DNA from: a virus
Virus record (IMG/VR): IMGVR_UViG_3300025141_000022
Coordinates: 120,914 to 184,913 of that record
DNA: 64,000 nt
Strand: one strand, 5' to 3'
How positions within the stretch are numbered: position 1 is the stretch's first letter; each line of letters starts with the position of its first letter. The notes below the pieces were generated by a model, which was not told the DNA's origin, ran no database searches, and saw only the letters and a list, made by a program, of their open reading frames with translations. Below, one piece after another: positions 3,059 through 63,810 of this stretch. A program made the translations under genes and the position numbers.

Positions 3059-5965
3059 ATGTCAGTAAAGAAATTTCGCTTTGTATCACCAGGAATTTTT
3101 ATTAACGAAGTTGATAATTCCCAATTACCAGCGCCCGAAAGAGCTTTTGGACCGGTGATTATCGGAAGAACAACGAGAGGCCCAGGAATGAGGCCAGTTA
3201 AAGTCAATTCCTTTTCGGAATTTGTGGAAACTTTTGGGACACCAGTCGGTGGCAAGGCCGGCGGTGATGTGTGGCGAGATGGAAACAGAGTTGGGCCCAC
3301 ATATGCTGCATACGCGGCTCAAGCGTGGCTTAGAGCCAATACAGGACCAGTTACCATGGTTCGTCTTCTTGGAACCGAAAATGCCGATAAAACAAATAGT
3401 GGCCGTGCTGGCTGGGAAACTAGCGCCGGCGTTTCGCCAGATCAATCTGCTGGTGGAGCCTATGGACTCTGGGTTGTTAACTCTGGTTCGACCACAAACG
3501 GAGTTACTGGCTCTCTAGCTGCTGTTTGGTACTTAGATCAGGGCTCTATTGAACTTACAGGGACAATTCGCGGCCAAGCCGCAGGCCATGGCTCCTCGAC
3601 AATGGGTGGCACTAGCGTTCAAGGCACCGGTGTTCTAATCGAATCAATTGGGACTTCTAAAGAATTCAAGGCCATTATTAAGAATTCATCCGGCGCAGTT
3701 GTACACACAACAGCGTTCAACTTCGACCCTGATTCTGACAAATACGTTCGTAAAAGATTCAATACAAATCCGCAACTTTGCAACTCTAGTATTGCTACAG
3801 ATCAGAAGACTTATTGGCTTGGTGAAACTTTTGAAAGACACCTTGACGAATATGTTACTGGATCCGCCGCCGGCGAAAACTACGGTGTACTTCTCGGCCT
3901 CGAAAGCGGAAGTTATGAATGGAAGGACAACAGAGGTCCGTTTCAGAATGCAAGAACAGGCTATTTTATTAGTCAGGACATTACCACAAATAGTGGCAGC
4001 TATAGCCCCGAAGCTATGCAGAAGCTGTTCTACTTTGTCGGACTTGATCATGGAGCATGGTTGCAAGACAACCTTAAAGTGTCGATTGAGGATATTAAAG
4101 CTTCTAGCAACTCCTCAACGCAATATGGCTCATTTTCAGTTGTACTTCGTAGAGTAAATGACCACGACGGCGCCGTCCAAATCGTAGAAAGATTTTCAAG
4201 CTGCAACTTAAACCCTAATTCGATTGATTATGTTGCAAGAAAGATCGGTGATCAGTATGCATCTTGGAGCGATACCGAGAATAGGTATATCTGGCATGGA
4301 ATTTACCAGAACCGCTCTAGATTCCTCAGAATCGTCATGAACCAAGATGTTGATAATGGAACAACGGACGCAACATACCTCCCATATGGTATTTATGGCC
4401 CAGTTCGACCCACAGGATTCACGGTCCTCAGTGGCTCAGACAGCCTGTCTACTTATGGAAGCGACACAGCTAGTACAGCGTTAGGAAACCATTGGGTCAG
4501 AGGTTCAGACGATATCGTGAACTCCCTAGGTGCCACAGAGACAGGAAGTATAGCTTCAGATGTGTTTGTGAACGTTGGCGGAGTAGGAACGGCCGCTGCA
4601 CCAAGATTGTCCTTCACGGGCTCTTTTAGGTGGCCAGAGATTCCATTGCGCCAGACCGCTTCAGCTACAACTGAGTACTTTGGTGCCGATACAACCAAAT
4701 ACGGTGCAACCGTATCCCGACACGAAGAGAGTGTTTCAGATGTCGTCCGCCCGTTGCCAGTTAGTTTGGGAGAAACTTACAGCTTTACTCCAGATAACTT
4801 GGCGACCGAGTACTCTTGGGTATTCTCTCTAGATGACGTTATTATTTCGGGAAGTCAGGCGCATTATAGCTCTGGATCCCGTGTTGCTGGAACATCAGCT
4901 ACCGCTGTCAGTGGAACATATCAAGAAATTATTGATAATGATTATAACAGATTTACTTCTGTCTTCTTCGGCGGCTTCGACGGCTTGAACATTAAGGAAG
5001 CAGAACCTTTCGCCAACCGAGTGCTAGATGCATCTGAAAGTCAAGTTGACAACTATGCATTTCACACTTTGCGCCGCGCAATTTACGCAGTCGCAGATCC
5101 AGAGGTGATAGAGTGTAACTTAATGGCCATGCCCGGTGTTACAAATGAAACCATGACCAAGCATCTGCTTGACACATGTGAAGACCGGGCCGACGCATTG
5201 GCAGTTATCGACTTGAAGGGTGATTATAAACCTTTCACCGAAAACAGCAATTCTGAAGCTTCTAGAGTTGGAAATGTGACCACCACGATTCTAAATCTTA
5301 AGCAGCGTGGAATTAACAGCAGCTACGGTTGTTCCTACTATCCATGGGTACAAATCAGAGACACTGAGAGCAGCAAGCTATTGTTCTGTCCTCCATCTGT
5401 AGTAGCTCTTGGTACTTTTGGTAGCTCTCAGAGAAGAAGCGAGATTTGGTTCGCACCAGCAGGCTTCAATCGCGGAGGGTTGACTGAAGGTTCAGCCGGC
5501 ATCCCAGTTGTGGGTGTGCGTGAAAGGCTAACTTCGAAGCAGAGAGATGATCTATACGAAGCGAATATTAACCCAATTGCTACATTCCCAGCAGAAGGAA
5601 TTGTTATCTTTGGTCAGAAGACTCTACAAGTGACTCCTTCCGCTCTAGATAGAGTTAATGTGCGCCGATTGATGATCTACTTGAAGAAGCAAATTTCAAG
5701 ATTCGCGGCTGAGATCCTGTTCGATCAGAACGTCCAAACTACATGGGATAGATTTACCGGAAAGGTGAACCCATTCTTGGATAGTGTCAAGTCTAGACTA
5801 GGACTAACCGAATACAAGGTGGTGCTTGATAGTACAACGACAACGCCAGACTTGATTGACAGAAACGTTCTATATGCCAAGATTTTCTTGAAGCCAGCTA
5901 GAGCAATTGAATTTATCGCGATTGACTTTGTTATCACGAATACCGGAGCTTCTTTCGAAGATTAA
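3059..5965 (+). CDS. gp18: Contractile tail sheath protein
   Basis: This 968-residue protein starts at ATG 3059 after a CGAGGAGAA box. The N-terminus (VSPGIFINEVDNS, then FGPVIIGRTTRGPG) is the classic sheath opening, where the N-terminal arm threads into neighbouring subunits. The C-terminal 120 residues (INPIATFPAEGIVIFGQKTL..., then VRRLMIYLKKQI, and the final FLKPARAIEFIAIDFVIT) match the sheath C-terminal domain that contacts the tube. It is longer than T4 gp18 (659 residues). The extra length lies in the middle (about residues 130-560), rich in S, T and G, and is probably an outward-facing insertion. It forms the contracting outer cylinder of the tail. Confidence 0.95.
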   Translation: MSVKKFRFVSPGIFINEVDNSQLPAPERAFGPVIIGRTTRGPGMRPVKVNSFSEFVETFGTPVGGKAGGDVWRDGNRVGPTYAAYAAQAWLRANTGPVTMVRLLGTENADKTNSGRAGWETSAGVSPDQSAGGAYGLWVVNSGSTTNGVTGSLAAVWYLDQGSIELTGTIRGQAAGHGSSTMGGTSVQGTGVLIESIGTSKEFKAIIKNSSGAVVHTTAFNFDPDSDKYVRKRFNTNPQLCNSSIATDQKTYWLGETFERHLDEYVTGSAAGENYGVLLGLESGSYEWKDNRGPFQNARTGYFISQDITTNSGSYSPEAMQKLFYFVGLDHGAWLQDNLKVSIEDIKASSNSSTQYGSFSVVLRRVNDHDGAVQIVERFSSCNLNPNSIDYVARKIGDQYASWSDTENRYIWHGIYQNRSRFLRIVMNQDVDNGTTDATYLPYGIYGPVRPTGFTVLSGSDSLSTYGSDTASTALGNHWVRGSDDIVNSLGATETGSIASDVFVNVGGVGTAAAPRLSFTGSFRWPEIPLRQTASATTEYFGADTTKYGATVSRHEESVSDVVRPLPVSLGETYSFTPDNLATEYSWVFSLDDVIISGSQAHYSSGSRVAGTSATAVSGTYQEIIDNDYNRFTSVFFGGFDGLNIKEAEPFANRVLDASESQVDNYAFHTLRRAIYAVADPEVIECNLMAMPGVTNETMTKHLLDTCEDRADALAVIDLKGDYKPFTENSNSEASRVGNVTTTILNLKQRGINSSYGCSYYPWVQIRDTESSKLLFCPPSVVALGTFGSSQRRSEIWFAPAGFNRGGLTEGSAGIPVVGVRERLTSKQRDDLYEANINPIATFPAEGIVIFGQKTLQVTPSALDRVNVRRLMIYLKKQISRFAAEILFDQNVQTTWDRFTGKVNPFLDSVKSRLGLTEYKVVLDSTTTTPDLIDRNVLYAKIFLKPARAIEFIAIDFVITNTGASFED

Positions 5966-20751: not shown

Positions 20752-21879
20752 ATGGCAAGAGCTAAGAAATCAAACGGAGCAGGCAAACTTTCAATCACGC
20801 AAATGCGAGATCTAATTAACAAGAAGGCCGGCCAAAATGTTGCCCACGATCTAAAAGATGAGAATCCTACTGAGGTTAAAGAATGGATCCCAACTGGCTC
20901 GCGCTGGCTGGACTCTATTGTCTGTAGAGGTAAACTAGCCGGGATCCCAGTTGGTAAGGTTGTTGAGATTGCCGGCTTAGAAGCAACTGGTAAAAGTTAT
21001 ATGGCCGCGCAGGTTGCAGCCAATGCACAGAAGCTGGGAATCGACGTTATTTATTTTGATAGCGAGTCTGCTATTGATCCAACCTTCCTTGAGAGGGCCG
21101 GCTGCGATCTAGACAAACTTTTGTATGTTCAAGCAACTTCAGTTGAGTTTGTTCTAGAGACTATCGAAGAGTTGCTGGGTTCTAACGACAATCGCATGCT
21201 ATTTGTATGGGATTCGCTAGCCCTCACTCCATCGGTATCTGACGTTGAAGGCGACTTTAATCCACTTTCATCGATGGCTGTCAAGGCAAGAATCTTGGCA
21301 AAGGGCATGTCTAAGCTTACAGTGCCCATTGCGAACTCTCAGAGCACGTTCCTTGTCCTTAACCAGCTTAAGACCAATATTACCCGATCTCCATCAGAAG
21401 CGCTTACAACGCCTTATATGACGCCTGGAGGGAAGGCTATGATCTATGCCTACTCACTTCGAATTTGGCTGACTGGTCGCAAAGCTAAAGCTAGCTTTGT
21501 GTTGGATGATAAAGGGTTCCGTATCGGCTCAGAGGTCAAAGTAAAGCTTGAAAAATCTCGCTTTGGAACGCAGGGTAGACAATGTAATTTTCGCATTCTA
21601 TGGGGAGACTCAATTGGAGTGCAGGACGAAGAAAGTTGGTTTGACGCCATTGGTGGTTCGCACAGACTTAAACGTTCCGGCGCTTGGTACGAATTGCTAG
21701 ACAAGCAAGGCGAGACAATTGGCCCAAAGTTTCAGGCCGCTAAATGGGTAGAGAGACTTGAGGACGAGACATTTAGAAAGAATGTCATGGAGATCATGGA
21801 CGAAGAAGTGATCATGAAGTTTGATAAGCGTGTGGGAAATGCTTCTGATTTTTACGAATCTGAAGAAAATTCAAAATAA
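20752..21879 (+). CDS. uvsX: UvsX/RecA-like recombinase
   Basis: Starting at ATG 20752 (AAGGAG box) gives 375 residues. The frame extends upstream but only over the previous gene. The Walker A loop is GLEATGKS at residues 75-82, and Walker B is the MLFVWDSLA strand near residue 150. A SEALTTPYMTPGGKA segment corresponds to the DNA-binding loop region, and NSQSTFLVLNQLKTNI fits loop/strand elements of the UvsX core. The length is close to T4 UvsX (391). It drives strand exchange, recombination-dependent replication and repair with gp32 and the gp41-type helicase. Confidence 0.92.
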   Translation: MARAKKSNGAGKLSITQMRDLINKKAGQNVAHDLKDENPTEVKEWIPTGSRWLDSIVCRGKLAGIPVGKVVEIAGLEATGKSYMAAQVAANAQKLGIDVIYFDSESAIDPTFLERAGCDLDKLLYVQATSVEFVLETIEELLGSNDNRMLFVWDSLALTPSVSDVEGDFNPLSSMAVKARILAKGMSKLTVPIANSQSTFLVLNQLKTNITRSPSEALTTPYMTPGGKAMIYAYSLRIWLTGRKAKASFVLDDKGFRIGSEVKVKLEKSRFGTQGRQCNFRILWGDSIGVQDEESWFDAIGGSHRLKRSGAWYELLDKQGETIGPKFQAAKWVERLEDETFRKNVMEIMDEEVIMKFDKRVGNASDFYESEENSK

Positions 21880-22404: not shown

Positions 22405-22827
22405 GTGTCTGAAAGAGAAATAGAGCCGAGTGTTTTGTATACTGGCCGCAACAAAAGATATATTGAATATGCTAGACGGATTGCAGAGAAATCCCAGTCC
22501 CCTGATTATCGCCATGGCGCTTTGCTGGTAAAAGGCGGCCAAGTGATTAACAGTTCCTACAACAAGAATTCGTATAAGGGGTGGGCGACACGATTCAGAG
22601 ATCGATTTAGTGGCCACGCTACCCATCACGCAGAGTTGGGATGTATTCTTGGCGTAGATAGAGCAAACATAAAAGGCTCTACAATTTATGTAGCTAGGAT
22701 AGGCAAGAAAGGCGATTTGAGGATGTCTAAACCTTGCCCCATGTGTACTGAAATTCTAAAGAACATGGGCGTGAGAAAAGTAGTCTATTCTATCTCAGAG
22801 GGGCAAATTGATTGTGAAAAATTATGA
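22405..22827 (+). CDS. Deoxycytidylate (dCMP) deaminase
   Basis: This 140-residue protein uses a GTG start (22405) behind GGGAGG. It has the zinc-dependent cytidine/dCMP deaminase signature: H75-A-E77, where Glu is the proton shuttle, and P110-C111-P-M-C114. HGALLVKGGQVINSSYN at about residue 34 is the substrate-side strand. It converts dCMP to dUMP for thymidylate synthesis. No thymidylate synthase is visible in this window. It overlaps the next gene by ATGA and is transcribed from the promoter at 22354. Confidence 0.85.
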   Translation: MSEREIEPSVLYTGRNKRYIEYARRIAEKSQSPDYRHGALLVKGGQVINSSYNKNSYKGWATRFRDRFSGHATHHAELGCILGVDRANIKGSTIYVARIGKKGDLRMSKPCPMCTEILKNMGVRKVVYSISEGQIDCEKL

Positions 22828-23063
22828 AAGTTGGTGACTTAGTTAAATGGAGTATTGACCCGTCTTATTGGGGCATTATTTTAGAGAAATCTCTTGCTAT
22901 GGATGTTTATGAATCTCATCAATTACACTCCATGGAAATGTCGCCGCACGAACAGGTATATAAGATATGGTGGTACCCATTTGCTAAGAATATTGGCGTA
23001 TTTACAACTACAGATTTAATACTATTCTCGGAGGGAGAAAATGAAAAGACTTTTGATTATTGA
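22824..23063 (+). CDS. Small VGDLV-family (SH3/KOW-like) protein
   Basis: This 79-residue protein begins MKVGDLVKW, the same opening as a large tandem family at 58.4-63.8 kb. A GIILEK strand and a WWYP strand follow, the order expected of a small SH3-like barrel. It is coupled at both ends to the dCMP deaminase (ATGA) and to the exonuclease gene, which starts within it. This is the only family member outside the right-hand cluster and suggests the family is ancient in this phage. Confidence 0.65.
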   Translation: MKVGDLVKWSIDPSYWGIILEKSLAMDVYESHQLHSMEMSPHEQVYKIWWYPFAKNIGVFTTTDLILFSEGENEKTFDY

Positions 23064-46597: not shown

Positions 46598-48166
46598 TTG
46601 ACAAAACATTATGAATCTGGTACTGAACTAAGCCAGAAGATTTTGAAGGGTGTTAACATATTAGCTGATAATGTTGCATCCACTTTAGGCCCACGCGGTC
46701 GAAACGTGATACTTAAGAGAAACGATGCGAGGCCCATCATAACTAAAGACGGTGTAACTGTTGCCATGTTTGTCGATTTGGATGATCCAATTGAGAATGC
46801 TGGAGCGCAGATTGTCAAGCAAGCTGCAGCCAAGACAGCAAATACAGCCGGCGATGGAACAACCACCGCTACAGTTTTAGCCAGAGAAATTTTGAATCAA
46901 TCCCAGAGATATATTTTAGCCGGCTCATCGCCGGTAGAACTTAAACGTGGAATTGATAAAGCTGTTGAGGCCATAGCCGATAAGCTGAAAGAAATGGCCC
47001 GGCCGATTATGAGTGTCGAAGACATCGAACACATCGCCACAATATCAGCAAATGGGGATGAGAGGATTGGTAACATCATATCTATGGCAGTCGATCAGGT
47101 TGGCAAAGATGGTGCAATAACAGTGGAGGAAGCCCGGTCGCTACAAACTTCGCTAGAGTTGGTGGAAGGCTTTCAGTTTAAGTCGGGGTATGTATCGCCA
47201 TCGTTTATTACTGACCAGCGAAGAGGCATGGTTGAATACGACAAACCATATCTGTTGATAACAGACTATAAAGTGGACACGATTGATGAGCTTTTGCCAG
47301 TCTTGGAGCTTGTTTCACGAGAAGCGAGGCCGCTGGTTATTATAGCAGAAGAGATTTCTGGCCAAGCCCTTGCTGCGCTGATTATGAATACGACTCGCGG
47401 TACTCTTAAGGTGGCAGCAGTTAAGGCTCCGAGGTATGGAGAAGAGCGTAGGAACACACTGAAAGATTTATCCCTCGCGACAGGCGGCTGCTTCTTTACG
47501 AGAGAATCTGGTCGCAACTTATCGGATATTAAACTTGTAGATTTTGGGCAAGCCAAAAAGATAAACATTATCAAGAATCACACTACAATTGTCGGCGGTA
47601 AAGGCAACCACGAAAAGATAGAAGAAAAGATTGAAGCACTGAAGACAGAGATTCAACAGACTGAAAATCTTCATGAGTGTGAAATGTTACAAGACAGAAT
47701 CACTAGACTGGCCAGCGGGATTGCCATCATTCGTGTCGGCGCAGCTACAGAGATAGAAATGGTTGAGAAGAGACACAGAATTGAAGACGCTTTGGAAGCA
47801 GTTAAGTCTGCTCAAGAAGAGGGGATTGTGCCCGGTGGCGGCGTAGCCCTGATACGAGCAATAGAAGACTTAGATGTGGTCACATCAAATCGTGATCAAG
47901 AATTAGGTGTAGAGATTATTAAACAATCTGTTCAGGCTCCATTGAGACAAATGGCTGCCAATGCTGGCGAATCTCCTGACATGATTGTTTCAATGCTTTC
48001 CGGCGAAACAGGAAGCCGAGGGTATAATTTTGTCACTAGAGAAGTTGAAGATATGTATGAGATAGGAGTAATCGATCCGGTTAAAGTTACACGATCTGCT
48101 ATACAGAACGCTGCATCGGTATCATCAACACTGATAACAACAAATTATGCTATTGTGCAGGAATAA
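46598..48166 (+). CDS. groEL: GroEL-like chaperonin
   Basis: A TTG start (46598) behind TGGAGGA gives 522 residues (GroEL has 548). Equatorial-domain motifs are intact: LGPRGRNVILKR, ITKDGVTVA, NTAGDGTTTATVLA (residues about 83-95, ATP site), and GIVPGGGVALIRA near residue 408. The apical domain includes LVEGFQFKSGYVSPSFITDQ. The C-terminus lacks the GGM repeats that line the bacterial ring. It is phage-encoded, driven by its own strong promoter, and presumably folds capsid or other virion proteins, perhaps with the GroES-like protein at 33448. Phage GroELs are uncommon. Confidence 0.93.
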   Translation: MTKHYESGTELSQKILKGVNILADNVASTLGPRGRNVILKRNDARPIITKDGVTVAMFVDLDDPIENAGAQIVKQAAAKTANTAGDGTTTATVLAREILNQSQRYILAGSSPVELKRGIDKAVEAIADKLKEMARPIMSVEDIEHIATISANGDERIGNIISMAVDQVGKDGAITVEEARSLQTSLELVEGFQFKSGYVSPSFITDQRRGMVEYDKPYLLITDYKVDTIDELLPVLELVSREARPLVIIAEEISGQALAALIMNTTRGTLKVAAVKAPRYGEERRNTLKDLSLATGGCFFTRESGRNLSDIKLVDFGQAKKINIIKNHTTIVGGKGNHEKIEEKIEALKTEIQQTENLHECEMLQDRITRLASGIAIIRVGAATEIEMVEKRHRIEDALEAVKSAQEEGIVPGGGVALIRAIEDLDVVTSNRDQELGVEIIKQSVQAPLRQMAANAGESPDMIVSMLSGETGSRGYNFVTREVEDMYEIGVIDPVKVTRSAIQNAASVSSTLITTNYAIVQE

Positions 48167-58476: not shown

Positions 58477-58791
58477 TTGGCGAATCAAGACAACATCAAG
58501 GTTGGCGATTTAGTTAGGCTGGTCCCAGAGCCAATGGCATACCCCGTTGCTCCTCATTGTAGGCGCTTAAGTCTTAAAGACTTGAAAGCCTTAGAGGAAA
58601 TAGAAACTATATCACCGGGTGAAGAACTTGGCATTGGAATGATTGTCGAACGCATCGAAGAACAGACTATTTTGCGTGAAGATGGGGTAGAACAACTTGA
58701 GATGATCAGCATTGTTAAAGTGTTTTGGTCGAAGCCGGGTCTGGAAAGGTGGGAGTTTCCAGAGGATTTAATCGTGATTCAGCCTAGTTAG
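58477..58791 (+). CDS. VGDLV-family protein (104 residues)
   Basis: TTG 58477 behind AGGGGGTGA starts a protein opening ANQDNIKVGDLVRLVPEP, followed by a longer acidic loop than in its relatives, a GIGMIVERIEEQ strand, a VKVFWSK strand and ERWEFPEDL. It is the first member of the right-hand VGDLV array and carries a 35-residue insertion after the first strand. Confidence 0.65.
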   Translation: MANQDNIKVGDLVRLVPEPMAYPVAPHCRRLSLKDLKALEEIETISPGEELGIGMIVERIEEQTILREDGVEQLEMISIVKVFWSKPGLERWEFPEDLIVIQPS

Positions 58792-58905
58792 TGTGGCAGC
58801 GCGGGCCGCCGGAAGGTTTATTTTGAGGGGTTTTTTCGCGGAAAATTTTTCACACATCGGGGAGTTGGCAGGGGCTTAAGACATAGACAACGGGGGGAAC
58901 GATGG

Positions 58906-59163
58906 TTGTTGAGTATATGCAAAGGTGACTACATTAAGTGGGTGACAGGAATAACGACATTTGCTGCATCGTCACAAGGGGAAGTTTATCCTATAGAAAA
59001 GGAGTATGCATACGGGATAGTTATTGCTGTTGCAGAGGCAATAGATATTGGTTCCGATGTCATCATCGCGTACAATGTTAATAGTGGTGACGATGAGCGT
59101 TGGTTAGTTGCATCCGTTGATGACGAAGACTACTGCATACAACTAGTTAGTAAGGTGAGGTAA
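58906..59163 (+). CDS. VGDLV-family-like protein (divergent)
   Basis: TTG 58906 (GGGGGGAA upstream; TTG 58909 is possible) gives 85 residues. It opens CKGDYIKWVT in place of VGDLVKW, then GIVIAVAEAIDIGSDVIIAYN and a DERWLVASVD strand. The order of strands agrees with the family although the key Leu-Val is replaced. The preceding 114 bases hold no gene, and no promoter or terminator is evident. Confidence 0.55.
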   Translation: MLSICKGDYIKWVTGITTFAASSQGEVYPIEKEYAYGIVIAVAEAIDIGSDVIIAYNVNSGDDERWLVASVDDEDYCIQLVSKVR

Positions 59164-59171
59164 GAGGCACC

Positions 59172-59462
59172 ATGAAGAATATAGGCAAAACGATTTCAAT
59201 AAATAACATTCGCGCCGGGGATTATGTCCGATGGCTTAAACCTATGGGAAACGCGACCGACCGCGAGTATGTCTATGGCTTGGTCTTGGACTCTATTTTA
59301 TCCGGTGCGGAACACGGCGCGGAACCATCCCTAAAGATACTCGACAACAAGGATCCATCTGGCCGAGGGATATGGTTGCCGATTCGATTGTTGGTCGAAG
59401 CTGGCTCGTTACAAATTTCACGCGGTACAAGCTGGATTATGATTGACCTGTCCGATATTTGA
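59172..59462 (+). CDS. VGDLV-family-like protein (divergent)
   Basis: This 96-residue protein starts at ATG 59172 (AGAGGC upstream). NNIRAGDYVRWLKPMG replaces the VGDLV opening, then YGLVLDSIL and a GIWLPIRLLV strand. It sits 8 bases after the previous member and ends just before a promoter. It is probably an SH3-like barrel of the same set. Confidence 0.55.
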   Translation: MKNIGKTISINNIRAGDYVRWLKPMGNATDREYVYGLVLDSILSGAEHGAEPSLKILDNKDPSGRGIWLPIRLLVEAGSLQISRGTSWIMIDLSDI

Positions 59463-59471
59463 AAAAAATGC

Positions 59472-59500
59472 TTGACAACACGACCTAAATCCGATATATT
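59472..59500 (+). promoter_or_regulatory. Sigma70-type promoter
   Basis: TTGACA (59472-59477) and TATATT (59495-59500) are 17 bases apart. The surrounding AAAAAAATGCTTGACAACA and CGATATATTATA blocks copy those of the SSB promoter at 19461. Confidence 0.88.
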
Positions 59501-59519
59501 ATATGGGTGAGGAAAAAAA

Positions 59520-59867
59520 ATGGTCGAAGAAGCATACGAACCCATCGAGATTGAATACGCCTTTAACAGTTTTGTCAAAAGGGCGGAGGCGATGGTAAAA
59601 GATTACTATACTGATCACTATACGAGTTTGGAGTTGCCTGACTTGGTAGTAAGATCGGGTCGAAAATACTGGAAGATTATCAAGGGCACAGACGAGTCTG
59701 GATGGACTGTCTGGGGATTTGTACGGAAGGAAGACGGCGCTATGTTTAAGCCCGCATCATGGAACGCCCCATTTACTAAAGGCCCCAGTGCTATCAGAGG
59801 ATACGTCACTGGACACTCAAACGGAATGAACTCAGTTACACCTTATGGAGTTGTGTATGCGAAATGA
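59520..59867 (+). CDS. Small protein, unknown
   Basis: This 115-residue protein starts at ATG 59520 behind GTGAGG, right after the promoter. A helical N-terminus (EYAFNSFVKRAEAMVKDYY) precedes a domain with WKIIKGTDESGWTVWGFVRKEDGAMFKPASW, which looks like a small beta sheet. The C-terminus is Gly/Asn/Ser-rich. No family is recognised. Confidence 0.55.
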   Translation: MVEEAYEPIEIEYAFNSFVKRAEAMVKDYYTDHYTSLELPDLVVRSGRKYWKIIKGTDESGWTVWGFVRKEDGAMFKPASWNAPFTKGPSAIRGYVTGHSNGMNSVTPYGVVYAK

Positions 59868-60060
59868 CAAACCAAAACTTAAACTAGCAGAAAATATGTT
59901 TGCCGGGTATCTGTTCCAGCAGCTTTATCCGCTGTTGATAGAGAATGACGAGAAGATCGAACGAGCTAAAAGTTTAGGACTTCACGACGAAGCCGTCGAG
60001 TTATCTTCTATTGGCGAGCAGCTTGAAACTTTGATTCCGCGAAGCACGGCACAAGCATGA
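59857..60060 (+). CDS. Small helical protein
   Basis: ATG 59857 (GGAG at 59847) is preferred over ATG 59845, giving 67 residues. It overlaps the previous gene. The protein is all-helical (LFQQLYPLLIENDEKIERAKSLG) with a turn. It overlaps the next gene by ATGA. The function is unknown. Confidence 0.5.
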   Translation: MRNDKPKLKLAENMFAGYLFQQLYPLLIENDEKIERAKSLGLHDEAVELSSIGEQLETLIPRSTAQA

Positions 60061-60302
60061 GCCACAAGGGGCGATTTCCATACTATAAACAAGTCAACTA
60101 TCGCAGAACTTTGCGCGTAGGGGATCTAGTCGAAATCGGGGTGCTGGGTGGACTGGGCGTTGTGATCAAAGTGGAAAAGTCGGAGTCGGGATGGGATCCA
60201 GCAACGATTCAGTGGTTTAACACCGGAGATCGCAATACGGTTAGCTCTCATTTGGAAAGCCTGCGCGTAGTTTCAAGGTCTTTACATTTTCTTGACAAAT
60301 AA
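60057..60302 (+). CDS. VGDLV-family protein (81 residues)
   Basis: Starting at ATG 60057 inside the previous stop codon, it has a basic leader (HKGRFPYYKQVNYRRT), then LRVGDLVEIGVLGGLGVVIKVEKSESGWDPATIQWF in blocks, the full family pattern (VGDLV - GVVI - W - IxW). Its end overlaps the TTTACA/TTGACA boxes of the following promoter. Confidence 0.65.
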   Translation: MSHKGRFPYYKQVNYRRTLRVGDLVEIGVLGGLGVVIKVEKSESGWDPATIQWFNTGDRNTVSSHLESLRVVSRSLHFLDK

Positions 60303-60335
60303 TGCTTGACAGTCGATGCCTATGTGTGCTATATT
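60281..60335 (+). promoter_or_regulatory. Triple-box promoter 1
   Basis: Three -35-like hexamers, TTTACA (60281), TTGACA (60292) and TTGACA (60306), are spaced 11 and 14 bases apart, followed after 18 bases by TATATT (60330-60335). The same layout recurs at 62348, 63078 and 63756. Confidence 0.7.
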
Positions 60336-60341
60336 ATGATC

Positions 60342-60599
60342 ATGATTGACGACAATGCCTTTTCTAACATGAAATCTAACCGGGTGGGTGGTCCATTCTG
60401 TGTAGGGGATCTTGTAGTGATCGCTGATGGCGTACACGATGAAGCTATGCCAGAAAGTCGCATGGGCGTTATTGTTGAGAGGCTTGGCGACAGCGGATCC
60501 GACTGGACTATATTGATGACCAACGGCAATCGAATGAAGTTTAACAGTTATTTCCTACATAAAGTCGTTAGCGACAAGTCCACGGGGGATGATAAATGA
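60342..60599 (+). CDS. VGDLV-family protein (85 residues)
   Basis: The start is uncertain. The frame is open from TTG 60306, but that lies in the promoter, so ATG 60342 (or ATG 60369) is taken. No strong ribosome site is seen, and the transcript could be nearly leaderless. The family core FCVGDLVVIADG, RMGVIVERLGDSGSDWTILM and a MKFNSYFL strand is clear. Confidence 0.6.
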   Translation: MIDDNAFSNMKSNRVGGPFCVGDLVVIADGVHDEAMPESRMGVIVERLGDSGSDWTILMTNGNRMKFNSYFLHKVVSDKSTGDDK

Positions 60600-60624
60600 A
60601 CAAGCGATTATAGAGAATACTTAC

Positions 60625-60795
60625 ACGCTCTCTTTTAACTAACTATAAGAGGATTACTGTGGGTTCTATGTCTTTAACGAACTCACCATGTTGACATTGG
60701 AGCACTGGAGTTTTGTGTCACATAAACCCTACGGGGAGTTAACGAAAGGATAGCGAGGCAGTCGCGGCGAAGACAGCGAGCATTAAAGAGAGCGT
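60625..60795 (+). other. Gene-poor gap with long-range inverted repeat (possible small RNA)
   Basis: Between the genes ending at 60599 and starting at 60838 there is no frame of note. An 11-base perfect inverted repeat (60625-60635 with 60785-60795) brackets about 150 bases, and a TTTTT run follows the second arm (60795-60799). This could be a structured non-coding RNA closed by a basal stem with its own terminator. I do not recognise tRNA features or a known RNA family. A TTGACA at 60691 has no good -10 partner. Confidence 0.35.
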
Positions 60796-60837
60796 TTTTA
60801 ATACTAATAACCATCACTCAACGAGGAGGGAACCAAG

Positions 60838-61134
60838 TTGGGAAAAAATACAAACAGACAGGTAATCGCGGCATGGCTAAAGGGAAGCTGCGCCACGAAC
60901 CATGGGAAATCACTCTGGACTAACGGCATCGAGCTATGGTCCTACCATCTTAAGATCGGGCACCGCACTGAGAAGACGGCACTAGTAGCTGACTACACTG
61001 CGGGTAGTGATTCGTTTCAGTCTCAGACTACATCGTGCCATGTCAACTTGGCAAAGCGAGAGGTGCCAACAATGTGCATTTTTCATCCTAGGGTTTGGGA
61101 AACGACCAACTTTGCTGATAAGATTCCATTTTAG
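60838..61134 (+). CDS. Small protein with GSC..NH pattern
   Basis: TTG 60838 with a perfect GAGGAGGG box gives 98 residues. The sequence GSCATNHGKSLWTNGIELWSYHLKIG followed by TTSCHVNLAKR resembles a small family widespread in environmental phages (GSxxxNHxxSLxTDGxxLYSYxxxIG). It has an all-beta look with conserved His, Asn and Cys. The function is unknown. Confidence 0.65.
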   Translation: MGKNTNRQVIAAWLKGSCATNHGKSLWTNGIELWSYHLKIGHRTEKTALVADYTAGSDSFQSQTTSCHVNLAKREVPTMCIFHPRVWETTNFADKIPF

Positions 61135-61143
61135 GAGTGCAAA

Positions 61144-61428
61144 ATGAAGTTCACGATTGTTGTTGATACCGAAGACGAGGAAGGCATCTTGGACACTTAT
61201 AAGATTGTCAATCACTTCTTTATGAAGTTGCCAGCCAGTCTAACGGGTGTGCAGAAGGGTCGTCACGTCAAGTATACCAAGATTCCGCTCGTTAAGATGC
61301 TACGGAAACACGCGAAGGAAGTGATTGAAGCGGCAGAGCACGGAGAAGACGGTCAGGGTCTAAGGTTCAACAAAGTCTTTGCGGATCAACTGTTCGCTGA
61401 ACAACCAGAAAACAAAACCATTAAATAA
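61144..61428 (+). CDS. Small protein, unknown
   Basis: This 94-residue protein starts at ATG 61144 (TAGGAGTGC box). It has an alpha/beta pattern: FTIVVDTEDEEGILDTYKIVNHFF then VKYTKIPLVKMLRKHAKEVI. The acidic first strand and basic helix suggest a small two-layer domain. It follows the 60838 gene by 9 bases and is probably co-translated with it. Confidence 0.6.
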   Translation: MKFTIVVDTEDEEGILDTYKIVNHFFMKLPASLTGVQKGRHVKYTKIPLVKMLRKHAKEVIEAAEHGEDGQGLRFNKVFADQLFAEQPENKTIK

Positions 61429-61440
61429 AGAGAGGGAAAA

Positions 61441-61584
61441 ATGGCTATTGGGATTCAAGTAAAACACACATCAGGACATGAGGGTGTCATTGTTGCTATG
61501 ACTGATCAACTGGCTCATGTCTTTATCATGGCTGTCGGTGGTATTGTAGAAGATACTATTGATAACTTTACGCCGATTGACTAA
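61441..61584 (+). CDS. Micro-protein, VGDLV-family-like (47 residues)
   Basis: An open frame from ATG 61441 (AGAGGG upstream) to TAA 61584 encodes 47 residues: GIQVKHTSGHEGVIVAMTDQLAHVFIMAVGG and a C-terminal NFTPID. The layout strand - GVIV - strand matches a minimal SH3-like barrel. It lies in a row with family members and has a good ribosome site. Confidence 0.6.
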   Translation: MAIGIQVKHTSGHEGVIVAMTDQLAHVFIMAVGGIVEDTIDNFTPID

Positions 61585-61587
61585 GGT

Positions 61588-61815
61588 ATGAAACAGGGGA
61601 GCAAAGAGTTTAACATAGGGGATCTGGTTAGGTTTCGCCAACCGATCCCATCCCCAAATAGTCGTACCGGAGTCGGTATTATACTAGAGGTTGCGAAAAA
61701 GAATGACCTGTGGGGAAATAAATGTTATACGATTTTGTGGTATGAAACTGGGGAAAAAACTGTAGAGTGGGCTGTCTACATAGAACTTGTAAGCCCAACA
61801 AAGGAGAGGGAATAA
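61588..61815 (+). CDS. VGDLV-family protein (75 residues)
   Basis: ATG 61588 starts 3 bases after the previous stop (CTAAGG). The protein has FNIGDLVRFRQPIP, VGIILEVAKKNDLW, YTILWYETG and EWAVYIELVSP: the complete family order of strands. The next member begins one base after its stop. Confidence 0.7.
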   Translation: MKQGSKEFNIGDLVRFRQPIPSPNSRTGVGIILEVAKKNDLWGNKCYTILWYETGEKTVEWAVYIELVSPTKERE

Positions 61816-61816
61816 A

Positions 61817-62134
61817 ATGAAAATAGGGGATCTAGTAACACTTTCGTCGTATGCGTGCGGCCTTAATCAACTGGCTCGCTGGACACCCAGTGGTCGAAGA
61901 TATTGTGCTGGCCATTGGGCCGAAGATGGCACGTTTAAGGCGGAGACTCCCAAGCCCATGGTCGGCATCGTTACCCACAAGGCAACGGGCGACTCATATT
62001 ATAATAGAGATAAAACAATGTTCCATGTTACATGGTTTATTGACGAAGATCCGCCCGTTGGCCGCGATGGACGATGGGGCTCGTCAGGGTTTTATCGCAA
62101 GGATCTAAAGTTTGTTAGCAAAATCAAAAAATAA
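61817..62134 (+). CDS. VGDLV-family protein (105 residues)
   Basis: ATG 61817 behind GGAGAGGG starts MKIGDLVTLSSYACG. A 30-residue insertion with Cys, Trp and Arg (RWTPSGRRYCAGHW) precedes VGIVTHKATGDSYYN, MFHVTWFIDE and SSGFYRKDLKFV. It is a larger member with a variable loop that could make ligand specificity differ from its relatives. Confidence 0.7.
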   Translation: MKIGDLVTLSSYACGLNQLARWTPSGRRYCAGHWAEDGTFKAETPKPMVGIVTHKATGDSYYNRDKTMFHVTWFIDEDPPVGRDGRWGSSGFYRKDLKFVSKIKK

Positions 62135-62145
62135 GGAGAAATGAT

Positions 62146-62340
62146 ATGGCTACATGCATCGAATGTGAAGAAGAATATAATGATAAACGTCTAGCTCTCG
62201 GCTATCGAACATGCCTTCGCTGCGGAGATCGATCCGCTCGCAGGGTGATTCGCACACGGACGGCAGCGAATCTTGCTGCCATGACCCCGAATCACTTTGA
62301 CGGAAAGGTCGAGGATTTGTTTGATGAGCGCCGGGATTGA
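62146..62340 (+). CDS. Zinc-ribbon mini-protein
   Basis: This 64-residue protein (AAGGAG box) has CIEC (Cys4, Cys7) and CLRC (Cys23, Cys26), a compact zinc ribbon, then a basic helix (RSARRVIRTRTAANLAAM). It is likely a nucleic-acid- or RNA-polymerase-binding peptide. It ends just before a triple-box promoter. Confidence 0.65.
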   Translation: MATCIECEEEYNDKRLALGYRTCLRCGDRSARRVIRTRTAANLAAMTPNHFDGKVEDLFDERRD

Positions 62341-62347
62341 TGGAGGC

Positions 62348-62402
62348 TTGACATTTTCTTGACAAGATTGTGCTTGCAAGTCGCATCAGCCTGTGCTATA
62401 TT
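62348..62402 (+). promoter_or_regulatory. Triple-box promoter 2
   Basis: TTGACA (62348), TTGACA (62359) and TTGCAA (62374) are spaced 11 and 15 bases, then TATATT (62397-62402) follows after 17 bases. The box nearest the -10 is the expected -35, and the other two are extra. Confidence 0.75.
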
Positions 62403-62427
62403 ATATATGTCTTAAAGGAGAAAGACT

Positions 62428-62622
62428 ATGAACTTGACCAACGAAAACAATCCTTTTGATCAAGCTGCTCTGGTATGTGAGAGTGTTATCGCTTGTATTT
62501 CTATCTTCGCCTCTCTGCGTGAAGCAGAGGGTTTGGCCGAATCAACGCCACAGGCGCGAGAGCTAGTTTTGGAGTCTTATGCTGCTGCGCTCGTTGCTGG
62601 GCAAATGGCAGCGGAAGCGTGA
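62428..62622 (+). CDS. Small helical protein
   Basis: This 64-residue protein starts at ATG 62428 behind AAAGGAG. It is acidic and helical (ALVCESVIACISIFASLREAEGLAE, ELVLESYAAALVAGQMAAEA). The mixed hydrophobic-acidic helices suggest a helical bundle or peptide partner of a host protein. Its stop overlaps the next GTG start. Confidence 0.6.
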   Translation: MNLTNENNPFDQAALVCESVIACISIFASLREAEGLAESTPQARELVLESYAAALVAGQMAAEA

Positions 62623-62834
62623 AGCGAACCGGCGCACCGAGCGTTGGCGACCTTGTAGTCCACAAACTTGATGAGGAGCGTGGTATCACCTGTATCGGCC
62701 TTGTCTTGGTATGCAGGGGTATCCAGTGCTTCATAACATGGGCCTCTCCATCAGCACCGAGAGGCTGGCACAACCGTACAAGATTAAAGGTTGTGTCTGC
62801 TGTAACACCGAGGGAGAAACATAATGGTAGATAG
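62619..62834 (+). CDS. VGDLV-family protein (71 residues)
   Basis: GTG 62619 overlaps the previous stop. The sequence APSVGDLVVHKLDEERGITCIGLVLVCRG, then CFITWASPSAPRG and TRLKVVS gives the family strands in order. It overlaps the next gene by 11 bases. Confidence 0.65.
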   Translation: MKRTGAPSVGDLVVHKLDEERGITCIGLVLVCRGIQCFITWASPSAPRGWHNRTRLKVVSAVTPREKHNGR

Positions 62835-63081
62835 AGAAGTCAACCAAGAAAACTATAAAAGCCTTGTCGGTTCGCTGCTGCGATTCCGATGCGAGGGCAA
62901 CTACCCTGAGTTTCATGGTGCTATCGGCATGGTGATCAAGCACAGCAAGCCATGGTCCGTCCGTGTGCGCTGGGTCAAGCCGGTCCATTACGCTACGCAC
63001 ACTGAACACTATAAGTTTCACGGGCCAGCTACGGTGTCCGACTTTGAACTCACCAGATTTGAGATCATCAGTGAGTCTTGA
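62824..63081 (+). CDS. VGDLV-family-like protein (85 residues)
   Basis: This protein, starting at ATG 62824 (GGGAGAAAC box), has KSLVGSLLRFRCEGNY in place of VGDLVRF, then AIGMVIKHSKPWSVRVRWVKP and FELTRFEII. The strand order is retained, with GSL replacing GDL. Its end overlaps the first box of the next promoter. Confidence 0.6.
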   Translation: MVDREVNQENYKSLVGSLLRFRCEGNYPEFHGAIGMVIKHSKPWSVRVRWVKPVHYATHTEHYKFHGPATVSDFELTRFEIISES

Positions 63082-63132
63082 CATCTTCTTGACAACTTTC
63101 CTCTTGACTCTCACCCGCACAGGTGGTATAAT
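63076..63132 (+). repeat. 57-bp direct repeat, copy 1 (promoter unit)
   Basis: These 57 bases recur without change at 63754-63810. The unit covers three -35-like boxes and the -10 of a promoter, so the two copies are a recent duplication of a promoter cassette. Confidence 0.92.
63078..63132 (+). promoter_or_regulatory. Triple-box promoter 3
   Basis: TTGACA (63078), TTGACA (63089) and TTGACT (63104) are spaced 11 and 15 bases, then a perfect TATAAT (63127-63132) follows after 17 bases. It lies 25 bases upstream of the MKVGDLV trio. Confidence 0.85.
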
Positions 63133-63156
63133 ACAGGGGTAAAAAGGGAGAGATCA

Positions 63157-63399
63157 ATGAAAGTCGGTGATTTGGTAAAAGTAAAAGACTGTACTCCCCA
63201 GCTTGATACCATGGCAGGCGCTTATCTGGATTTTGCATGTGAATGTTTTTTCTGCACGACTGGATCAAATCGTATTGGATTTGTAACTGGTCCAGCCCCC
63301 CGAAATAGTTGGCACGTCATGTTTGACACAGGAATGTGGCGACTAGATGATTTTGAAGAAGCTCGCGGAGAAGTGGAGGTGATCGGTGAAAGTCGGTGA
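63157..63399 (+). CDS. VGDLV-family protein, trio member 1 (80 residues)
   Basis: ATG 63157 behind GGGAGA opens MKVGDLVKVKDCTPQ. A Cys-containing insertion (DFACECFFCTTG) precedes RIGFVTGPAPRNSWHVMFD and MWRLDDFEEA. The first 26 bases of the gene are the same as those of the next member except for the start codon. It overlaps member 2 by 14 bases. Confidence 0.75.
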   Translation: MKVGDLVKVKDCTPQLDTMAGAYLDFACECFFCTTGSNRIGFVTGPAPRNSWHVMFDTGMWRLDDFEEARGEVEVIGESR

Positions 63400-63586
63400 T
63401 TTGGTAAAAGTAACCTTTGGCCACAGCGAAGAGGCTACGGTTGGTATTTTTATTCGTGATGATACTGTTGCTACCGGGCAGGACGAGAATGGTGACATTA
63501 TTCTCACTCGCGCATATGTGCTGTGGGAAGGCGAAGTTTACTCAACCCCCCTTGATCAGATGGAGTTGATCAATGAAAGTCGGTGA
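63386..63586 (+). CDS. VGDLV-family protein, trio member 2 (66 residues)
   Basis: GTG 63386 (GTGGAGGTG upstream, within member 1) opens MKVGDLVKVTFGHSEEATVGIFIRDD. It then has AYVLWEGEVYSTPLDQMEL. It is the shortest clean version of the fold and a good reference for the family. It overlaps member 3 by 14 bases in the same way that it overlaps member 1, showing duplication of whole units. Confidence 0.75.
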   Translation: MKVGDLVKVTFGHSEEATVGIFIRDDTVATGQDENGDIILTRAYVLWEGEVYSTPLDQMELINESR

Positions 63587-63770
63587 TTTAGTAAAGTTTG
63601 AATCTTCATTTTTTAGTGCTACCGCTGCTGAATATGCGAATCCCGGTATAATCCTTGAAGATGTTTCGCGTCCGCATCATCGACGCGCCCGTCACTTCCG
63701 AGTGATATGGGCCGATCAGAGAGTCACGACCGAGCACATGTCGTATCTTGCACTCTTGACATCTTCTTGA
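63573..63770 (+). CDS. VGDLV-family protein, trio member 3 (65 residues)
   Basis: ATG 63573 opens MKVGDLVKFESSFFSATAAEYANPGIILEDV, then HFRVIWADQRVTTEHMSYLALL. The strand order matches members 1 and 2. Its last codons run into the second copy of the 57-bp promoter repeat. Confidence 0.72.
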   Translation: MKVGDLVKFESSFFSATAAEYANPGIILEDVSRPHHRRARHFRVIWADQRVTTEHMSYLALLTSS

Positions 63771-63810
63771 CAACTTTCCTCTTGACTCTCACCCGCACAG
63801 GTGGTATAAT
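63754..63810 (+). repeat. 57-bp direct repeat, copy 2 (promoter unit)
   Basis: This copy is identical to 63076-63132. It overlaps the end of trio member 3, so the gene's last residues are encoded by promoter sequence. Confidence 0.92.
63756..63810 (+). promoter_or_regulatory. Triple-box promoter 4
   Basis: TTGACA (63756), TTGACA (63767), TTGACT (63782) and TATAAT (63805-63810) have the same 11/15/17 spacing as promoter 3. Confidence 0.85.

Follow-up and report, generated by a model that had tools for sequence, protein, structure and literature searches.

The window analysed here, 64,000 nucleotides long, is the 3' end of a 184,913-bp phage record and carries a tandem array of small genes whose products open with a VGDLV motif (Table 1). 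An array of about twelve such genes had been proposed for this DNA. The array is confirmed, but it is larger than proposed and resumes at the record's start, and about 22 members are present in the record in total. Membership was judged with a profile of 545 array proteins, all from other contigs, which was run on the genome's 1,392 ORFs, with 6,960 shuffled ORFs as the null (best score 9.3 bits). The ORFs listed in the original prediction are present where it had placed them, and this outside profile recovers 11 of its 14 genes at 13.5–35 bits, linking them above background as it had expected; these include the further member that it had noticed at 22824 beside a deaminase gene. Among the four genes that it had considered diverged versions, 62824 is supported as a member, whereas 58906, 59172 and 61441 are not linked to it by the outside profile. 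With the motif masked by cutting the first nine residues, the signal is weaker, though about ten of the genome's members remain above the top shuffled score (8.2 bits). Genes 63573 (4.0 bits), 60342 (6.4), 58477 (7.4), and 61817 and 22824 (both 8.1) fall below that level, so the N-terminal motif and the gene context are the main grounds for counting them as members. Searches of single members against Pfam and PHROGs gave no significant match, megablast against phages gave no match, and a tblastn search with two members found nothing significant among 50,697 phage records.

Table 1. Array genes, joints and promoters. Bit scores are those of the outside profile unless stated otherwise; positions refer to the window, or to the whole record where prefixed L003.
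Feature	Position	Strand	Remarks
Isolated array member	22824..23063	+	31.0 bits; 4-nt overlap with deaminase-like gene 22405-22827
Array member KVGDLVRL, 104 aa	58477..58791	+	19.4 bits; TTG start, SD GGGGGTGAC
Candidate diverged member	58906..59163	+	4.2 bits; weakly similar to 59172 (blastp 0.003)
Candidate diverged member	59172..59462	+	no profile match
Sigma-70-like promoter TTGACA-17-TATATT	59472..59500	+	
Array member RVGDLVEI	60057..60302	+	25.0 bits; 4-nt overlap with upstream ORF 59845-60060
Promoter module CTTTACATTTTCTTGACA...TTGACA-18-TATATT	60279..60335	+	
Array member CVGDLVVI	60342..60599	+	13.5 bits; start 60342 or 60369, ORF opens 60306
Candidate member, 47-aa ORF	61441..61584	+	no profile match
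Array member NIGDLVRF	61588..61815	+	26.7 bits
Array member KIGDLVTL	61817..62134	+	23.5 bits; first loop long; similar MKIGDLVTLSQYG proteins encoded in L043 and L056
Promoter module, weaker copy	62346..62402	+	
Array member SVGDLVVH	62619..62834	+	21.5 bits; GTG start; 4-nt overlap with upstream ORF 62428-62622, 11-nt with next gene
Diverged array member LVGSLLRF	62824..63081	+	15.7 bits full profile, 14.7 motif-masked; stop codon inside the promoter module 3' of the gene
57-nt promoter module, TTGACT-17-TATAAT	63076..63132	+	identical to 63754-63810
Array member with Cys insertion	63157..63399	+	33.5 bits; relatives in 12 contigs
Joint 1, GGAGGTGATCG-GTGAAAGTCGGTGATTTGGT	63374..63405	+	14-nt overlap; SD, GTG start and upstream gene's TGA stop
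Array member	63386..63586	+	35.1 bits; GTG start; overlaps each neighbour by 14 nt; relatives in 5 contigs
Joint 2, GGAGTTGATCA-ATGAAAGTCGGTGATTTAGT	63561..63592	+	
Array member	63573..63770	+	27.2 bits
57-nt promoter module, second identical copy	63754..63810	+	
Array continuation, other record end	L003:111-1598		eight complete genes
Extra array member	L003:14479		
Probable extra array members	L003:8853, L003:13921		

The joint between cassettes

Each cassette consists of one gene of about 50-105 codons, and between cassettes lies a joint of about 33 nt, TGGAGGTnATCA-RTGAAAGTCGGTGATTTGGT, at which the adjoining genes overlap by exactly 14 nt. In the upstream frame the joint encodes the last beta strand and the tail L-E-V-I-[SN]-E-S-R-stop (ESR tail). 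The same DNA also holds a Shine-Dalgarno sequence complementary to the 16S 3' end (GGAGGTGATC), and the downstream start, followed by the rest of M-K-V-G-D-L-V, begins 14 nt before the end of the upstream stop. The original prediction mentions neither the overlaps of 14 nt at 63386 and 63573 nor the identical, promoter-like 57-nt repeats at 63076 and 63754.

A set of joints was taken from loci fetched through the neighbouring MoxR gene, without use of the motif. The 14-nt overlap with the upstream ORF is found in 268 of 397 strict members of these loci, and the motif uses GGT for its Gly codon in 344/401 cases and GTC for Val3 in 253/321, compared with 548/1,773 and 375/2,023, respectively, elsewhere in the same genes. 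With pattern-fetched loci counted in, 138 contigs hold 1,084 strict genes; about 500 families are distinguished at 45% identity. A contig may hold up to 28 copies, and at least three occur in 36 of the 47 MoxR contigs. Joint DNA gave chance-level matches only among 50,697 phage records, and no cultured phage in this collection carries it. A hairpin at the joint was considered and ruled out, since windows at joints have less stable folds than those in mid-gene (-8.0 vs -10.0 kcal/mol).

Predicted fold, variation and presumed expression of the array proteins

Several analyses suggest, with moderate confidence, that the array proteins are five-stranded SH3/KOW-like barrels, as had been proposed. 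AlphaFold2 models the L003:111-278 family as such a barrel (pLDDT 82; strands at 6-9, 17-27, 30-36, 42-44 and 48-52), and the top Foldseek matches are eS4, Spt5 KOW and Tudor barrels, with a probability of about 1 and TMq of ~0.7 at weak E-values (E >=0.035). Among PDB sequences, the sub-family profile A1 finds the Spt5 KOW domain at 3.4e-5, a value summed over several weak stretches, and NusG at 0.006. The independent profile A3 finds eL21 at 0.02 and NusG at 0.11. The Pfam KOW model PF00467 has no match in the genome (controls 14/14), and 2 of 80 array proteins match it below the cut-off level (best E 0.005). Viral fold matches are dominated by A0A516 accessions. The 63157 protein carries an inserted Cys motif, C12, C28, C30 and C33, which is conserved in the family alignment and, judged by this conservation, is possibly a metal site; in the AlphaFold2 model of its family the pLDDT is 70, falling below 50 in the Cys loop.

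Inserted residues are concentrated at profile positions 10, 23 and 34, where proteins carry 6.1, 5.6 and 4.0 of them on average, and strands contain almost none. The claim that loops vary most is therefore upheld, and that of one scaffold being diversified holds for loop length. The original prediction saw in this a scaffold diversifying under selection against host defences. The variable loop lengths, the very large repertoire and the early-type promoters agree with such a view, which is possible although we are inclined to doubt it, because the arms race by diversifying selection is not seen in substitution rates: whole-gene pairwise dN/dS between orthologues, with the saturated majority of pairs left out, has a median of 0.20, somewhat above the 0.135 of non-array genes, and no pair exceeds 1, though such gene-wide values could mask a few loop sites. 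The variation looks more like the swapping of ready-made cassettes than fast change inside a gene.

The record contains nine copies of the promoter module, all in the array region and in the same orientation, and sigma-70-like promoters are confined to that region, which supports the earlier assignment of these genes to the early type. Host RNA polymerase would transcribe the array early, and translation would be coupled through termination-reinitiation at the joint. We infer that the array proteins are early host-binding proteins, whose barrels may bind host proteins, such as transcription, translation or defence factors, in takeover. The inhibitors, decoys or adaptors of the original prediction would be possible forms of such a role.

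Exchange of cassettes and its possible explanations

Alignments between contigs tend to end at the joint. Left ends fall within -15 to +14 of the start codon in 76% of cases (control 15%) and right ends within +15 to +30 in 58% (control 8%), values that in part reflect conservation of the joint itself, for which the comparison of shared cassettes provides the baseline. Cassettes common to contigs with unrelated neighbours have an identity of ~0.75-0.85 inside and of ~0.26 just past the joint. Gene order is also lost: for array pairs the gene that follows is homologous in 12% of cases at 60-75% identity and in 25% at 75-90%, compared with 50% and 59% for non-array pairs. Exchange reaches across diverged phages, since phages with MoxR proteins of 66% identity share cassettes whose DNA is 93% identical, the corresponding values in another case being 79% and 100%. 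Unrelated genes, encoding ClpP (1.6e-85), GIY-YIG (3.9e-16, 1.5e-18) and SWIM proteins, sit on the same joint; their products end in EDR or ESR if a joint follows, whereas homologues without a joint end otherwise. On the strength of these sequence comparisons, we regard the joint, its recurrence, the similarity breaks at joints, the lost order, the exchange between diverged phages and the joining of unrelated genes as established.

The reading that we favour, and consider probable, is that this region belongs to a gene-cassette array of uncultured large marine contractile-tailed phages, exchanged at joints. Each cassette starts and ends with half of the same joint, so recombination at any pair of joints would add, remove or replace one complete gene, with the genes on either side still in frame and translated. 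The joint's own homology may guide this recombination, through a phage RecA-like protein or another pathway. However, the joint serves translation and both protein ends, and its conservation alone is thus no proof of guidance.

Mosaic phage genomes whose junctions fall at gene boundaries are well known. Illegitimate or random recombination, with selection keeping the products that have intact frames and ribosome-binding sites, could explain most of the joint's conservation by function, and the joint would then be the best-working scar and no guide. We find this unlikely, because most boundaries lie at one 33-nt joint and not at varied boundary types, and because GTC dominates at Val3 though GTA too keeps the overlapping-frame Arg. 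Joints are also slightly homogenised inside contigs (0.737 vs 0.723, permutation sd 0.0026), a slight effect that could reflect genome composition. Still less probable is an origin within a single phage lineage by tandem duplication and divergence of one neighbour-overlapping gene, the joint being kept only because it is shared by two proteins and a ribosome-binding site. The N-terminus and predicted fold common to all members speak for it, as does a handful of paralogue pairs within contigs, among them a two-gene block duplicated in L056, but only 16 within-contig pairs, in 13 contigs, reach at least 50% identity, near-identical cassettes lie amid unrelated neighbours in other contigs (for instance L146:7192-7395 and L151:3474-3677, 100% aa), and the unrelated genes on the same joint strain it further. 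Integron-like site-specific recombination at the joint is highly improbable, despite a resemblance to integron cassette arrays in the small, variable genes and their shared boundary, because the record, which may be incomplete, has no tyrosine or serine recombinase (PF00589 and PF00239 absent; controls positive), and the joint is coding and, unlike attC hairpins, less folded than mid-gene windows.

On a wider proposal that builds on cassette exchange at joints, our judgement is evenly balanced: these phages may possess a new exchange system, based on a coding 'coupler' that ends one gene, gives the next its ribosome-binding site and start, and acts as the recombination joint. Through it whole genes, those of unrelated fold included, would be swapped in frame, and small barrels that interact with the host would be assembled into large interchangeable arrays. 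It has long been asked how lytic phages can trade small early genes with frames and expression intact, and this lineage would give an explicit answer in a standard joint that leaves the genes on either side translatable. The tiny barrel proteins, in several hundred families, would form a natural library that can be screened for host targets, and the joint could serve as a DNA tag to find such cassettes, and unrelated early genes too, in metagenomes.

Comparison with known systems

In the literature searched, mostly without subscription papers, no description of such arrays was found, and several known systems share some of their features. Promoter early-stem-loop (PeSL) elements reportedly lie between small early genes of T4-like phages and have been proposed as mediators of modular shuffling. 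The arrays resemble them in having short conserved sequences between small genes, with promoter modules also sitting between cassettes, whereas PeSLs are non-coding promoter-terminator elements and the joint lies in two overlapping coding regions with a ribosome-binding site. No PeSL-type pairing of promoter and stem-loop terminator was found, the joint being coding and terminator-like sites occurring at shuffle level (6 vs 4.9 expected). For PeSL cassettes in T4-like phages, PMC4503421 cites Arbiol 2010 and Comeau 2014. The same article describes the 'ORFanage' of cyanophage S-PM2, some 33 small orphan genes whose order is rarely conserved. Like the arrays, it groups small genes of poorly kept order in a marine phage, but going by the published description no common joint or fold is reported for it (PMC4503421).

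The Start-Associated Sequences of Cluster K mycobacteriophages, as described in PMC3203893, are 13 bp long and lie 5' of starts in 11-19 copies per genome. Like the joint, they are short repeats at the starts of many non-structural genes of varied families and contain SD-like bases; unlike it, they have no fixed overlap and do not code for both protein ends, and exchange at them is not demonstrated in the passages of the source consulted (PMC3203893). Their sequence, GGGATAGGAGCCC, differs by inspection from the joint consensus. The array proteins share a predicted five-stranded barrel and the pattern G-D-x-V ... G-[IV]-[IV] with the KOW/SH3-like barrels of NusG, Spt5, eS4, eL21 and Tudor, from which they differ as stand-alone phage proteins of 50-105 aa with variable loops and no Pfam KOW match in the genome. 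Integron cassette arrays have been reported in phages too (PMC9892861), and there as well small, mostly uncharacterised genes are swapped as units at a common boundary. In contrast to integrons, which need an integrase (IntI) and attC hairpins, neither of which was found here, the cassettes of these phages overlap and have one protein start in common.

Joints and membership of the array

Neighbouring members of the array, which are small VGDLV genes with predicted SH3/KOW-like barrels, meet at a joint of about 33 nt that comprises the end of the upstream gene, a Shine-Dalgarno sequence and the start of the downstream gene. The two genes overlap by 14 nt, ATGAAAGTCGGTGA, which encodes M-K-V-G-D in the frame of the downstream gene and (N)-E-S-R-stop in that of the upstream gene, and the preceding GGAGGTGATC is complementary to the 3' end of 16S rRNA. 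By searching IMG/VR twice, via the array-adjacent MoxR ATPase gene and via the joint, we obtained 166 loci. Among the MoxR-fetched loci, whose selection was independent of the motif, the 14-nt overlap is found in 268 of 397 strict members (genes with the strict start motif) and an ATGA-type overlap in 59, and the joint consensus is TGGAGGTnATCA-RTGAAAGTCGGTGATTTGGT. The start codon in these loci is GTG in 189 of the 268; Gly4 is GGT in 86% of cases versus 31% for other Gly codons of the same genes, and Val3 is GTC in 79% versus 19% elsewhere. Codon choice at these two positions tracks the joint.

All ORFs listed in the original prediction of a tandem VGDLV family are present. Using a profile trained solely on array proteins of other contigs, we recovered 11 of its 14 genes (13.5-35 bits; the top score among 6,960 shuffled ORFs was 9.3), but not 58906, 59172 and 61441. 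When the N-terminal motif was masked, 63573, 60342, 58477, 61817 and 22824 dropped to or below the best shuffle (8.2), but roughly ten of the genome's members stayed above it, so that the link goes beyond the VGDLV motif alone.

The window covers bases 120,914-184,913 of a 184,913-bp viral record. The array continues at the start of this record (L003), where the end of one member is followed by eight more (L003:111-1598). Nine copies of a module that consists of CTTGACATnTTCTTGACA and a downstream sigma-70-like promoter are present in the record; every copy lies within the array region, and all share one orientation. Such promoters suggest that host RNA polymerase transcribes the array early. 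The modules lie at both record ends with none between, so a circularly permuted genome is likely, with an array that the assembly ends have split.

Features of the array, its surroundings and related loci (plain coordinates, window; L003, start of the same record; L056 and L092, other loci)
Feature	Position	Strand	Details
Exact 14-nt overlaps between neighbouring members, this genome	63386, 63573, L003:111, 265, 571, 755, 1151, 1332		
Promoter	63104-63132	+	11/12 consensus bases, 17-nt spacer
Promoter	63782-63810	+	11/12 consensus bases, 17-nt spacer
Two promoter modules	L003:3472-3533, L003:4690-4751		identical across 62 nt; flank MoxR-like ATPase gene (3583-4656)
421-aa gene	L003:4736		after MoxR-like ATPase gene; resembles vWA/metallopeptidase-like partner
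Non-member gene in array region	59520-59867		matches DUF7717 (5e-10) and phrog_5014
Small four-Cys protein in array	62146-62340		weak match to DksA-like zinc fingers (phrog_54, E 0.015)
Protein similar to that at 62146-62340	L092 1391-1594	reverse strand numbering	directly upstream of array cassette
Two-cassette block duplicated within one genome	L056 3810-4025 + 4012-4209; 15002-15202 + 15189-15386		one copy opens MKVGDLVRMKVGDLVRM, resembling two starts fused out of phase
Tail sheath	3059-5965		968 aa, longer than typical
RecA-like protein	20776-21879		
GroEL, phage-encoded	46598-48166		phrog_5725, 6e-141

Exchange of cassettes among phages

Comparison at the sequence level demonstrated that the joint recurs, that similarity is bounded at joints, that gene order is scrambled, that cassettes are exchanged across diverged phages and that unrelated genes are joined. 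Inter-contig DNA alignment ends cluster at joints. Because conservation of the joint itself affects alignment ends, we also followed identity from shared cassettes across the joint into their unrelated neighbours; it was 0.74-0.85 inside the cassettes and 0.22-0.30 past the joint, while conservation between unrelated joints is limited to about -12 to +23. Array genes at 60-75% identity share a homologous next gene in 12% of cases versus 50% for non-array genes; at 75-90% identity the figures are 25% versus 59%. One cassette is 100% identical in protein between loci L146 and L151 and has unrelated neighbours on both sides, and L104 carries one additional cassette exactly between two that are adjacent in L092. 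Phages with MoxR proteins at 66% identity share cassettes at 93% DNA identity, and for one cassette the identity is 100% against 79% for MoxR.

Among 219 upstream genes at joints without the strict motif, 97 fail to match the family profile, and such non-family genes include ClpP (1.6e-85), GIY-YIG nucleases and a SWIM zinc finger. Their C-termini are ESR, EDR or similar, whereas homologues without a joint downstream end otherwise: ClpP ends ...YGLVDKIIT without and ...YGLVDKVVENNHRPVNNEEDEDR with the joint, and GIY-YIG ends ...DEYIYGRK and ...IKVINESR, respectively. In one Cys-rich family a member opens MQVGDYHRECG and a homologue MAADGYHRECG. The joint thus belongs to the cassette boundary and is not tied solely to the barrel fold.

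Strict members number 1,084 across 138 contigs, with a maximum of 28 per contig, and the GDLV-type proteins form some 500 families at 45% identity (single-linkage clustering), many of them singletons. Joint-type starts occur in 35 of 35 large records tested, always on one strand, and a reversed control pattern in none of the 35. The window's tail-sheath protein is present in 31 of these 35 records, mostly at 42-63% identity and in two at 36-39%. Across this lineage of uncultured large marine contractile-tailed phages the sheath has split or very long versions, and several records carry at least two copies. Two more distant, larger phages (L155, 236-kb record; L066/L093, 293-kb record) also have joint arrays; L155 shares one cassette with L160 at 89% aa identity, and the window's sheath has just 38% identity to the sheath of L155's record. 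In phage isolate records, joint DNA was found no more often than by chance. Among 84,980 species searched, the joint was found in a contig of one metagenome-assembled bacterial bin, a Flavobacteriales MAG; this contig (L176, DQKQ01000147.1) carries joint-type array genes and is probably a mis-binned phage contig, or its binning may be a host hint.

The predicted barrel proteins

The family profile reads MKVGDLVKV-loop-GIGIVVEI-loop-VKVLW-DG-loop-LEVISESR, with insertions concentrated in the three loops. AlphaFold2 predicts five strands for the L003:111 family (pLDDT 82), and the top Foldseek matches are eS4, Spt5 and Tudor barrels, with probability near 1, yet E no better than 0.035. Viral fold matches in BFVD (A0A516L*/A0A516M*) are grouped in three accession blocks, which suggests that further virus records are rich in small barrels. 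The sub-family profile A1 matched Spt5 KOW repeats (3.4e-5, a sum of weak stretches) and NusG (0.006), and an independent one, A3, weakly matched eL21 and NusG. Single array proteins matched KOW, CarD/TRCF RID and PcrA/UvrD tudor domains below or near cut-offs. RNA polymerase is the binding partner of several of these domains in known proteins, which provides a lead only. The net charge of array proteins centres near zero; thus, as a class, they fit neither DNA mimicry nor basic nucleic-acid binding. The 63157 family has an inserted conserved motif, C12...C28-x-C30-x-x-C33, possibly a metal site. With the saturated majority of pairs left out, orthologue dN/dS has a median of 0.20 over 215 pairs and exceeds 1 in none of them; the value for non-array genes is 0.135.

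Possible mechanism and known systems

We propose that recombination between joints would be guided by homology, perhaps aided by the RecA-like protein, that the overlap would permit termination-reinitiation and that the barrels may bind host factors. The main competing explanation is that recombination occurs at random and selection retains working joints. Joints are homogenised within contigs, which speaks against random recombination, but the effect, although significant, is slight and does not settle the choice. The closest described systems are the PeSL elements of T4-like phages (cited in PMC4503421) and the Start-Associated Sequences of Cluster K mycobacteriophages (PMC3203893); unlike the joint here, neither is a coding joint common to two overlapping genes. 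Integron arrays in phages (PMC9892861) are alike in outcome but unlike in parts, and they too have no coding joint common to overlapping genes. In view of these differences we place the joint array as a variant within boundary-sequence shuffling in phages, a known kind, with a fair chance that it forms a category of its own.
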